Of a stretch of DNA of 64,000 bases, positions 46,950 to 60,084 are shown one piece after another. The stretch spans positions 1 to 64,000 of the forward strand of contig NZ_JAVAMQ010000015.1 in NCBI RefSeq assembly GCF_030732095.1, in the 5' to 3' direction. Position 1 is the first letter of the stretch. Each line of letters starts with the position of its first letter. Position numbers and translations under genes: made by a program. Origin of the DNA: Paracoccus spongiarum (GTDB lineage: Bacteria > Pseudomonadota > Alphaproteobacteria > Rhodobacterales > Rhodobacteraceae). The notes below the pieces were generated by a model. That model did no database searches. It worked only from the letters and a program-made list of their open reading frames with translations, and had not been told where the DNA came from.

Positions 46950-47681
46950 TCAGCGGATCGTGTAGCCGCCATCCGCGACCAGCGTGGCGCCATTGATGAT
47001 GCCCGCATCGGCCGAGGCCAGATACAGCGCCGCTGCCGCGATCTCGCGCGGTTGGGCAAAGCGGCCCACCGGGATCTCGCGCCGGGCCTGTTCGCCCTTT
47101 TCGCCCGACCAGCCGACCAGCGCCATCGGCGTCTCGACCACGGTCGGCGCGATCGCGTTGGCGGTGATGCCGTGCCGCGCCCATTCCACCGCCATCACCT
47201 GCGTCAGGTTGATCAGCCCGGCCTTGCTGGCCCCGTAGGCCGCATGTTCGGCGATCGCCACGATCCCGGCCTGCGAGGCCAGGTTGATGATCCGCCCCCG
47301 CCCCGAGCGTTTCAGCCAAGGCAGCGCGGCTGCCGCCGCCAGCCAGGGTGCCCGCAGGTTGATCTGCAGGGTGCGGTCCCAGGCCTCGACATCGACCGCC
47401 TCCAGCGGGAAGACGATCCCGAGGCCGGCATTGTTGACAAGAATGTCCAGGCCCATCGTCCGGCCGACCTCGTCGATGCAGGCCGCGATCTGCGCCGGGT
47501 CGCCCAGATCGACGGTGAAGGCCCGGTGATCCGCGCCCAGCCGGCAGGCCAGGTCCTGCGGGTCCTGCCGGTCGACAAGCGCAAGCCGTGCGCCGGCCGC
47601 GGCAAAACCCTCGGCCAGGGCGGTGCCGATGCCGCCCGCGGCCCCGGTGATCAGGGCGGTCAGCCCGCTGAGATCGGTCAT
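46950..47681 (-). CDS. SDR family oxidoreductase (polyol dehydrogenase, GolD-like)
   Basis: A 243-residue short-chain dehydrogenase. The NAD(P) motif is TGAAGGIG near residue 12, NNAG near residue 86, and the catalytic Ser and YxxxK (YGASK) near residues 136-152. It ends in NGATLVADGGYTIR. An acidic or hydrophilic residue after the second strand (LVDRQD) favours NAD. The general look is that of D-arabitol/D-threitol dehydrogenases such as GolD; the substrate is not proven. It is the last gene of the leftward alditol operon, with GAGGAGG 6 nt before its ATG. Confidence 0.8.
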   Translation of the reverse strand: MTDLSGLTALITGAAGGIGTALAEGFAAAGARLALVDRQDPQDLACRLGADHRAFTVDLGDPAQIAACIDEVGRTMGLDILVNNAGLGIVFPLEAVDVEAWDRTLQINLRAPWLAAAAALPWLKRSGRGRIINLASQAGIVAIAEHAAYGASKAGLINLTQVMAVEWARHGITANAIAPTVVETPMALVGWSGEKGEQARREIPVGRFAQPREIAAAALYLASADAGIINGATLVADGGYTIR

Positions 47682-47712
47682 CCACTCCTCCTCTGCCGCG
47701 CGTCGGCCTGCG

Positions 47713-48444
47713 TCAGATGTCGAAATTCGAGGGCAGCACGATCATGTCGCGGATCGTCACATTGCGCGGGCGCGACAGCATGAACAGGATGGCCTCGGCG
47801 ACCTCGGACGGCTCGATCAGCGCGCCGTTTTCCTTGGCCTTGCGCAAATTCTCCTCGGGCCAGTCGGCCAGCAGGGCCGAGATCACCGGGCCCGGCGACA
47901 CCTGTCCCACCCGGATGCCATGCCGCATCAGCTGGCGCCGCATGGTCTGGACAAAGCAGGTGATCGCCCATTTCGACCCGGAATAGACCGGTTCCCACGG
48001 GATCGCGGAATGGCCCGCCACCGAGCAGGTCACGACGATGTCGCCGCTGCCCCGCCGGGTCATGTGGGGGATGACCGCGTGAACGTTCTTCATGACCGCA
48101 TTGACGTTCAGGTTCAGCATCCGGTCGATCGCGGCGGGGTCGGCCACCTCGGACAGGTCGCCGCCGATATAGCTGCCGGCGTTGCAGTGCAGGATGTCGA
48201 TATGCCCGGTCCGGGCCAGGATCTGCGGCACCATCTCGTTGCAGCTGGCCGGGTCCAGCAGATCGGTGACCTGCGCGAGGCAGTTCGCCCCGTGGCGCGC
48301 GACCAGATCGCGCAGCGCCGCCGCGTCGCGATCCACCAGGACCACGCGCGCACCCTGGGCCAGCAGCGCCTCGGCCGTGGCGAGGCCGATGCCCGACGCG
48401 CCCCCGGTGATCGCCGCCACCTTGCCTTCGAATGTCGTGCTCAT
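47713..48444 (-). CDS. rbtD: SDR oxidoreductase closely resembling ribitol 2-dehydrogenase
   Basis: A 243-residue SDR that by recollection resembles Klebsiella ribitol dehydrogenase along its length. Shared features include the start GKVAAITGGASGIGL, the unusual AGSYIGGDL, the WEPVYSGSK active-site context (YxxxK), LLADWP, and the C-terminus VAEAILFMLSRPRNVTIRDMIVLPSN, which lacks the usual DGG end. It would oxidise ribitol to D-ribulose or a similar alditol to its ketose. The ATG at 48444 is preferred over one 6 nt upstream because AAGGA then lies 9 nt away. The symbol rests on similarity only. Confidence 0.78.
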   Translation of the reverse strand: MSTTFEGKVAAITGGASGIGLATAEALLAQGARVVLVDRDAAALRDLVARHGANCLAQVTDLLDPASCNEMVPQILARTGHIDILHCNAGSYIGGDLSEVADPAAIDRMLNLNVNAVMKNVHAVIPHMTRRGSGDIVVTCSVAGHSAIPWEPVYSGSKWAITCFVQTMRRQLMRHGIRVGQVSPGPVISALLADWPEENLRKAKENGALIEPSEVAEAILFMLSRPRNVTIRDMIVLPSNFDI

Positions 48445-48474
48445 CTGCATCTGTCCTTTCGCATCGTCCTGCGA

Positions 48475-58258: not shown

Positions 58259-58270
58259 GGAGGCACAGCC

Positions 58271-59332
58271 ATGTCGAATGTCCAGATCCGCGACGTCGTC
58301 AAGCGGTACGGCAATGTCCAGGTCATGCACGGCGTCAGCGTCGATATCGAGGATGGCGAGTTCGTCGTGCTGGTCGGCCCCTCGGGCTGTGGCAAGTCCA
58401 CGCTGCTGCGGATGCTCGCGGGACTGGAAGAGGTCAGCGGCGGCACCATCTCGATCGGCGGCCGGGTCGTCAACGACGTGATTCCGAAGGACCGCGACAT
58501 CGCCATGGTGTTCCAGTCCTACGCGCTTTATCCGCACAAGACGGTGGCCGACAACATGGGCTTTCCGCTGAAGATGGCCGGACGCCCAAAGGCCGAGATC
58601 GCCGAGAAGGTCGGCAAGGCCGCCGAGATCCTGGATCTGACGAAATATCTCGACCGGTTTCCCAAGGCGCTGTCTGGCGGCCAGCGCCAGCGCGTCGCGA
58701 TGGGCCGCGCGATCGTCCGCGATCCGCAGGTGTTCCTGTTCGACGAGCCGCTGTCGAACCTCGATGCCAAGCTGCGCGTGACCATGCGGGTCGAGATCAA
58801 GGAACTGCACCAGCGGCTGAAGACGACCATCGTCTATGTCACCCACGACCAGATCGAGGCGATGACCATGGCCGACAAGATCGTGGTCATGCGCGATGGC
58901 CGGGTCGAACAGATCGGCGCACCGCTGGACCTGTATGACAACCCGCAGAACGTCTTCGTGGCGGGCTTCATCGGCTCGCCGTCGATGAACTTCGTCCACG
59001 GCACCGTCGCCAGCGAGGGCGGGACGCGCCATTTCCTGTCCGACGGGGGGCTGCGCCTGCCGCTGCCCGACACGGCGGCGGCGGACGGACAGGCCGTCAC
59101 CTACGGTATTCGCCCCGAACATATCGCGGTCGGCCCCGGCGGCGTGCCGGTCAAGGTGGTTGTGCTGGAGCCGACAGGATCCGCGACCCAGATCTTTGCC
59201 CGCGCCGGGGGCGAGATGATCGACGCCATCGTCAAGGACCGCATCGCCGCCCGTCCCGGCGACGAGATCGGCTATCATGTCGACGTCTCGCGCGTTCACC
59301 TGTTTGACCGCGCCTCGGAAAAGCGTATCTGA
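58271..59332 (+). CDS. sugar/polyol ABC transporter ATP-binding protein (UgpC/MalK type)
   Basis: A 353-residue ATPase. Walker A is GPSGCGKST (residues 36-44), signature [14 protein letters not shown], Walker [17 protein letters not shown] and switch His [14 protein letters not shown]. The C-terminal TOBE domain (from about residue 240; [16 protein letters not shown]) is typical of the MalK/UgpC group. It energises the two permeases upstream. GGAGGCACAGCC precedes the ATG, 12 nt after the dehydrogenase stop. Confidence 0.92.
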
Positions 59333-59385
59333 GGGGCGGCCGGCTGGCGCGGCGGGTCGGATCATGGCGAAGAAGGGGGTTTGCA

Positions 59386-60084
59386 GTGGCGGATGTTCGG
59401 GCGGTTATCTTCGATCTCGACGGCTGCCTTGTTGACAGCGAGCCTCTGGCCCTCGACGCGATCGCGGCCGAGATGCGCGCCCTGGGCATCGACGACGCCG
59501 AACCCGAGGAGATCCGCGACCGCTTTCTGGGCGTCTCGATCGGGGTTATCTGCGATCATGTCGCGATGCGTTCGGGCGCGGCCTGCCCGCCCGACTTCCC
59601 CCGCCGCTTCGAGGATCGGGTCCTTGACCTCTACCAGACACGGCTGCGGCTGATCGACGGTGCGCTGCCCCTGCTGGAGACGCTGAAGGGGCGCGGCCTG
59701 TCCGTGGCCATCGCCACCGGCGGGTCGATCCGCAGGATGACCCGGACGCTGCAGTTGTCGGGCCTTGCGCCGCATTTCGAGGGGCGCAGCTTCAGCGCCG
59801 ATCAGGTGGCGCGCGGCAAGCCCGCGCCCGATCTGGTCCTGCATGCGGCGCAGGCGCTGGGCGCCGCGCCCGCCGGGTGCGTCGTCTTCGAGGACTCGCC
59901 CCATGGCGTGCGCGGCGCGATCGCGGCCGGGATGCGCGCCATCGGCTTTGTCGGCGGCAGCCATCTGGACGAGATCCGCGACGCCCATGCCGACCGCCTG
60001 CGAGAGGCCGGGGCCGAGCGGGTGGTGACACGCCTCTCGGATCTGCCGGATGCGATAGGCAACCCGCCGGCCGCCACCGCCTGA
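59386..60084 (+). CDS. HAD-family sugar-phosphate phosphatase
   Basis: A 232-residue haloacid-dehalogenase-like hydrolase (beta-phosphoglucomutase/phosphatase subfamily). The nucleophile motif is FDLDGCLVDSEP with Asp10 and Asp12, motif II ATGG, motif III GKPAPDLVL and motif IV FEDSPHGVRGA. It starts with GTG preceded by GAAGGGGG. Placed last in the alditol transporter operon, it likely dephosphorylates a sugar or alditol phosphate, either as a relief valve against toxic phosphates or in the pathway. The exact substrate is unknown. Confidence 0.83.
   Translation: MADVRAVIFDLDGCLVDSEPLALDAIAAEMRALGIDDAEPEEIRDRFLGVSIGVICDHVAMRSGAACPPDFPRRFEDRVLDLYQTRLRLIDGALPLLETLKGRGLSVAIATGGSIRRMTRTLQLSGLAPHFEGRSFSADQVARGKPAPDLVLHAAQALGAAPAGCVVFEDSPHGVRGAIAAGMRAIGFVGGSHLDEIRDAHADRLREAGAERVVTRLSDLPDAIGNPPAATA

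Follow-up and report, generated by a model that had tools for sequence, protein, structure and literature searches.

A 14-gene locus at positions 46950–60084 of a 64,000-nucleotide stretch of Paracoccus spongiarum DNA (contig NZ_JAVAMQ010000015.1, positions 1 to 64,000; henceforth the window) is probably an inducible system for the catabolism of several sugar alcohols, with an exit through a tagatose kinase (TagK) and a GatZ-type protein. Searches with Pfam profiles confirmed the families of its genes, which form two divergent operons in a genome of 3.93 Mb that is 99.93% complete. The minus strand codes for a SorC-type regulator, a ketose 3-epimerase, the PfkB-family kinase TagK, a GatZ/KbaZ-like protein of the PF08013 family and three short-chain dehydrogenases/reductases (SDRs), with ATGA overlaps at the SorC/epimerase and TagK/GatZ junctions; the plus strand codes for a binding protein, two BPD_transp_1 permeases, a DUF2160 protein, a Zn-dependent dehydrogenase, a UgpC-type ATPase and a HAD phosphatase. 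A preliminary description, made from the window's letters, had named these genes on these strands and at these coordinates, and the Pfam matches agree with it for all 14. Taken as a whole, the locus is real, conserved and unremarkable as sugar-alcohol loci go: it varies a pathway that has already been described, and its attraction lies in a putative convergence of C3- and C4-epimerase steps.

The kinase (50524–51504, minus strand) is a tagatose kinase by the NCBIfam model NF049991 (544.4 bits against a cut-off of 420). The PF08013 protein encoded next to it (49229–50527, minus strand), a proposed D-tagatose 6-phosphate 4-epimerase, scores 564 bits with the Pfam profile and belongs to the GatZ/KbaZ family by TIGR02810 (586.5 bits against 568.8), while falling short of what the individual GatZ and KbaZ models of NCBIfam require; its nearest solved relative is PDB 3txv (448 bits), followed by 2fiq (347 bits). 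The active-site and metal residues of Escherichia coli GatZ, as given in an excerpt of the relevant study, are Cys20, Glu44, Asp87, His88, Glu171, His257 and Lys279 (PMC11907403), and all seven are kept in the PF08013 protein when matched through an alignment to 2fiq. None of its 72 orthologues deviates at the Asp, the two His, the second Glu or the Lys, and the Cys and first Glu are likewise invariant in all 71 that are aligned there. The kinase would thus form D-tagatose 6-phosphate and the PF08013 protein would convert it to fructose 6-phosphate by C4 epimerization, a step that would make a tagatose-bisphosphate aldolase unnecessary.

The very name of the TIGR02810 family, a non-catalytic aldolase subunit, recalls a different route in which a PfkB-type kinase would phosphorylate D-tagatose 6-phosphate, a class II aldolase would cleave the resulting bisphosphate and the PF08013 protein would act as a helper subunit. 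Candidate parts for it are present in the genome: a second PfkB kinase, 1-/6-phosphofructokinase-like, lies at 3283–4128 of the window (plus strand; TIGR03168 212 bits, cut-off 216) and is the sole other PfkB match on the contig, and there are two class II (PF01116) aldolases. Both aldolases, however, exceed the cut-off of 496 with TIGR01521, which models fructose-bisphosphate aldolases (574.5 and 556.5 bits), do not reach those set for GatY, KbaY and tagatose-bisphosphate aldolase and sit on other contigs than the locus; moreover, C4-epimerase activity has been published for GatZ and KbaZ themselves, with Agrobacterium and Sinorhizobium enzymes cited in the excerpted text (PMC11907403). We consider the aldolase route very improbable. 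The earlier observation that no GatY/KbaY aldolase is visible beside these genes extends to the whole 99.93%-complete genome, in which no such partner was found, and the proposed exit by C4 epimerization, with no aldolase dedicated to tagatose bisphosphate, gains support from the model scores, the active-site residues and the typing of the aldolases. Since both aldolases fit the fructose-bisphosphate type and the kinase and PF08013 protein pass their own models, the path from tagatose through tagatose 6-phosphate to fructose 6-phosphate is the best and simplest reading of the exit from the sequence. It is a pathway already known from related bacteria.

The two exit genes also keep together across genomes. 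A search with exact peptide patterns from this kinase led to 93 loci, and we compared the best 80, a sample that is for this reason tilted to close relatives; a gene was scored as present at identity thresholds set by us (45–60%, or 35% for DUF2160) over at least half of the query, and gene absences are upper bounds, as several loci end at contig ends. In 72 of the 80, TagK has GatZ as its direct neighbor. Of 101 same-genus genomes (sampled evenly from a larger set, as were the 61 used below), 16 have TagK and 24 have PF08013; every one of the 16 TagK genomes also has PF08013 (Fisher p = 5e-13, uncorrected for kinship among the genomes), and in 13 of them the two lie side by side. The remaining eight loci have no intact GatZ beside TagK, and we rejected the idea that TagK works alone there after loss of GatZ: in all seven of their genomes that were searched (that of locus L067 being left out), a PF08013 match lies beyond the part fetched around TagK, which measures up to 21 kb (partial in one genome, G105). 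In one of the eight, L080 from 'Candidatus Rhodobacter lobularis', GatZ behind TagK has shrunk to a frame of about 112 codons (~10917–11255), and another contig of that genome holds a PF08013 match of nearly full length. In L045, L050 and L078 the ribitol-type SDR stands directly behind TagK with no GatZ between them, and PF08013 matches are found beyond the fetched stretches, the one in the L078 genome being partial.

Ahead of this exit, the Zn dehydrogenase and the three SDRs would oxidize alditols to ketoses, as their sorbitol, ribitol and galactitol dehydrogenase relatives suggest. SDR1 (46950–47681, minus strand), a predicted GolD/DthD-like polyol dehydrogenase, reaches 279.6 bits with NF005309, slightly under the cut-off of 286, and 196 bits with PDB 4npc ('Sorbitol dehydrogenase'). 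SDR2 (47713–48450, minus strand) is ribitol 2-dehydrogenase-like, matching PDB 5jo9 ('Ribitol 2-dehydrogenase') with 347 bits across 242 aa, and SDR3 (48475–49239, minus strand) is galactitol-dehydrogenase-like, galactitol dehydrogenase (2wdz/2wsb/3lqf) being its best PDB match at 191 bits. The Zn dehydrogenase (57206–58258, plus strand; PF08240 and PF00107) is of the sorbitol/xylitol dehydrogenase type, with sorbitol dehydrogenases as its best PDB matches (1pl6, 258 bits); its top NCBIfam match, L-threonine 3-dehydrogenase, scores 165.7 bits against a cut-off of 380. These family matches bear out the earlier claim of polyol-type dehydrogenases beside an ABC importer. A Gluconobacter sorbitol-dehydrogenase-like enzyme is described as turning allitol into D-psicose (PMC9083112, excerpt); this attests hexitol steps of that kind for the broader family but is no indication that they occur in this locus.

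The ketose 3-epimerase (51544–52428, minus strand; PF01261) would interconvert ketoses that are epimeric at C3. Among solved structures it comes closest to the L-ribulose 3-epimerase of M. loti (3vyl, 312 bits), for which the excerpted data give relative activities of 100 on L-ribulose, 42 on L-xylulose, 24 on D-tagatose, 20 on D-ribulose, 6 on D-sorbose and 2.3 on D-allulose (PMC8167858). Judging from these activities, the enzyme could plausibly act on pentuloses and on the tagatose/sorbose pair, and less plausibly on psicose. A route through the L-series has to be weighed at this point, since SDR3's best solved relative is an L-tagatose-forming enzyme, according to an excerpt of PMC12193009: galactitol would be oxidized to L-tagatose by the galactitol-type SDR and epimerized to L-sorbose, which a further SDR would turn into sorbitol on the way to fructose. 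The three SDRs and the sorbitol-type Zn dehydrogenase would provide the enzymes for it; however, the nearest solved epimerase has 2.4% activity on L-tagatose and a trace on L-sorbose in the excerpted data (PMC8167858), and TagK and GatZ would be superfluous. We judge this route to be quite improbable and retain the exit through TagK and GatZ.

Import would be carried out by the periplasmic binding protein (53632–55083; PF01547/PF13416), permeases A and B (55235–56113 and 56118–56954; both PF00528), the small DUF2160 membrane protein of 80 aa (56959–57201; PF09928 40.1 bits against 28) and the UgpC/MalK-type ATPase (58271–59332; PF00005; NF008653 493 bits against 432), all on the plus strand. 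Their families and neighbors indicate that the locus probably imports sugar alcohols, a ligand that we infer from gene context. The last gene of the operon codes for the HAD-family phosphatase (59386–60084, plus strand; PF00702/PF13419), whose top NCBIfam match, 6-phosphogluconate phosphatase, scores 102 bits, under the cut-off of 211.

The SorC-type regulator (52425–53429, minus strand; putative TTG start with GGAGG upstream) has a PF04198 sugar-binding domain scoring 168 bits against a cut-off of 27, and the intergenic control region between it and the binding-protein gene (53484–53545) contains TACANNTG boxes at 53484, 53504 and 53538. In 25 homologous regions between the SorC and binding-protein genes (the window and 24 loci) there are 68 such boxes, 1–4 in each, against a mean of 1.9 and a maximum of 6 in 200 dinucleotide shuffles, a ratio of 68 to 1.9 that is overstated, as the regions are related and the motif was picked on them. 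Three more single boxes occur elsewhere in the 64 kb window, and the spaced box pair, allowing at most one mismatch, has two occurrences in the whole genome, an exact one at 53484 and one with a single mismatch at 53518, so that both belong to this intergenic region. We propose that the boxes are SorC operators, through which SorC would control both operons. The idea of a divergent regulon, put forward in the preliminary description, gains support from this shared array of putative operators upstream of both operons, which is consistent with a single SorC-controlled regulon.

Several of the findings weigh against the sugar-alcohol reading. The homologous regions in which TACANNTG was counted are also those from which it had been chosen, and a reversed control pattern of the box pair has one chance match in the genome. 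Among the NCBIfam models listed, SDR3 passes just the broad 'glucose 1-dehydrogenase' model NF005559 (224.3 bits against 215), and SDR1, SDR2 and the Zn dehydrogenase are over the cut-off of none. The 3-epimerase lies under the cut-off for D-psicose 3-epimerase (NF051856, 169.6 against 300), and its nearest solved relative, 3vyl, favors ketopentoses, L-ribulose above all, in the excerpted data (PMC8167858). The best sequence match of the binding protein among solved structures, 5iai, is weak (56 bits), and its AlphaFold model is poor, with a mean predicted local distance difference test score of 60.6, and the assignment of an alditol as its ligand rests for that reason on gene context. With a model of that quality we drew nothing on the ligand from structure, where Foldseek placed two Agrobacterium solute-binding proteins, 5iai and 4rya, on top at query TM-scores of 0.40–0.42. 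Both are polyol-binding proteins. Finally, an importer half with no TagK or GatZ alongside exists in Paracoccus yeei.

This P. yeei half-cluster (locus L122, 12803–21657) sits on a plasmid, flanked by a rhamnose locus and by genes for replication of the plasmid, and comprises SorC, the importer, DUF2160, the Zn dehydrogenase, the ATPase, the HAD phosphatase, SDR1 (70% identical to that of our locus) and the ribitol-type SDR (75%); the 3-epimerase, TagK, GatZ and a close SDR3 were not found in the stretch. Because the importer half occurs here without the epimerase–kinase–GatZ module, the gene contents suggest an importer/pentitol core joined to a hexose add-on. The core would consist of the importer, Zn dehydrogenase, HAD phosphatase, ribitol-type SDR and SDR1, and the add-on of 3-epimerase, TagK and GatZ, perhaps with the galactitol-type SDR. 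The half-cluster and the TACANNTG box array are new here.

The same half-cluster, with its ribitol-type SDR, Zn dehydrogenase and importer, would also fit a locus devoted mainly to pentitols, in which the ribitol-type SDR and Zn dehydrogenase yield pentuloses, the 3-epimerase turns ribulose into xylulose for a xylulokinase encoded elsewhere, and TagK–GatZ is a minor hexitol branch. Ribitol dehydrogenase and L-ribulose 3-epimerase are indeed the best solved relatives of the enzymes concerned, and a XylB-like kinase is encoded elsewhere in the genome (its N-terminal part alone was scanned, under the full-length cut-off). Given this xylulokinase-like gene and a P. yeei half-cluster in whose stretch the epimerase, TagK and GatZ were not found, pentitols could have a way out other than the single exit supposed in the preliminary description. 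No pentulose kinase is among the cluster genes, however, and TagK and GatZ, fit for ketohexoses, lie within the same operon and keep the adjacency described above. We therefore regard a mainly pentitol role as unlikely and favor the broader sugar-alcohol locus with the TagK–GatZ exit.

A more far-reaching version of the favored reading is possible, but on balance doubtful. Acting on free ketoses, the 3-epimerase, together with the PF08013 4-epimerase acting on 6-phosphates, may bring all four D-ketohexoses (fructose, psicose, tagatose and sorbose) to fructose 6-phosphate via one kinase, and many rare hexitols could then be served by a single importer together with a handful of dehydrogenases of loose specificity. 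In this version the 3-epimerase–TagK–GatZ set would be a portable block added to an importer core for pentitols, with a single array of SorC operators in control. If true, this would explain how Alphaproteobacteria with the locus live on rare hexitols and ketoses, supply ready enzymes for converting rare sugars (tagatose, psicose, sorbose) and correct the 'non-catalytic aldolase subunit' label on many PF08013 genes in plasmid records. The box array offers a direct handle for finding and testing the inducer.

The cluster is flanked in the window by infB (44289–46865) and a DbpA-type helicase gene (60248–62098). Among 61 same-genus genomes, infB was found in 60 and the DbpA domain in 50, and except in the genome of the window itself no listed pair lies less than 90 kb apart on one contig; the two genes are not neighbors in the other genomes sampled.

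The arrangement as such recurs in Rhodobacterales and Hyphomicrobiales. All 14 genes are present in identical order and orientation, with 58–91% identity, on a plasmid of Rhodobacter sp. CZR27 (L002), and 13 of them (all but that of the HAD phosphatase) keep the window order in 8 of the 80 loci, the HAD gene joining them in four of these. Chance grouping of the genes is ruled out by the gene order kept in the Rhodobacter plasmid and among the 80 loci. The binding-protein gene is found in 50 of the 80 and is divergent from TagK in 48 of those; the ribitol-type SDR occurs in 51, the 3-epimerase in 52 and both in 42. The literature search returned no title or abstract opening on the 14-gene arrangement, which is weak evidence of absence with most subscription papers outside the search. 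The suggestion that the arrangement is unusual does not survive these counts, and clusters of 3-epimerase, TagK, GatZ and ribitol-type SDR are also carried by R. nepotum, A. arsenijevicii and K84. The fuller gene set is therefore a common, widespread variant of the known route and nothing new in kind.

Turning to that route, Wichelecki et al. (2015) are said to have described a D-altritol/galactitol pathway in Agrobacterium tumefaciens C58 made up of a PF00107 dehydrogenase, a PF00294 tagatose kinase, a PF08013 4-epimerase and an ABC importer, and our locus likewise holds PF00107, PF00294 and PF08013 proteins with an ABC importer. As counterparts of C58 we took, assuming their equivalence, three Agrobacterium/Rhizobium loci with an altritol-type layout (L088, L120 and L121, the latter two cut by contig ends). 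They have TagK–GatZ in common with our locus and differ from it in the importers and PF00107 enzymes, the latter being 26–29% identical to the Zn dehydrogenase, too distant for it to count as an orthologous altritol dehydrogenase; the regulator is of the LacI type in L088 (annotated) and L120 (by eye), as against SorC. In these stretches tblastn returned no 3-epimerase, SorC or DUF2160 of the window type and no close ribitol-type SDR. The supposition that the locus widens the substrate range beyond the Agrobacterium pathway therefore stands in part: it fits the missing epimerase and SDR matches and the distant PF00107 enzymes of these three loci, but R. nepotum, A. arsenijevicii and K84 do have the 3-epimerase and a ribitol-type SDR. 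In the latter three (L012, L015 and L005, respectively), the 3-epimerase, TagK, GatZ and ribitol-type SDR follow the order of our locus, whereas the window-type binding protein, permeases, DUF2160 and SorC were not found in the stretches; the K84 annotation gives a ribose-type ABC importer and another regulator.

On pSymB of Sinorhizobium meliloti R28, a GatZ-type protein (57% identical) lies directly behind a TagK-like kinase (49%), a pair that we assume to be the S. meliloti pSymB tagatose operon reportedly described by Kohlmeier et al. (2019). It differs from our locus in its LacI regulator and another ABC importer, ribose-like to judge from gene layout, and the stretch had no match to the 3-epimerase or SDRs of the window. 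The Rhodobacter sp. CZR27 cluster, in contrast, differs from ours in being plasmid-borne and otherwise in sequence divergence alone. The S. meliloti smo sorbitol/mannitol locus, as presented in an excerpt of PMC10433430, resembles ours in combining a broad polyol ABC importer, polyol dehydrogenases, a regulator, a putative phosphatase and a putative carbohydrate kinase, and the excerpted description includes no GatZ-type gene. Viewed against these systems, the P. spongiarum locus would add a 3-epimerase, a different importer and a different set of dehydrogenases to the known TagK–GatZ route of Agrobacterium and Sinorhizobium.

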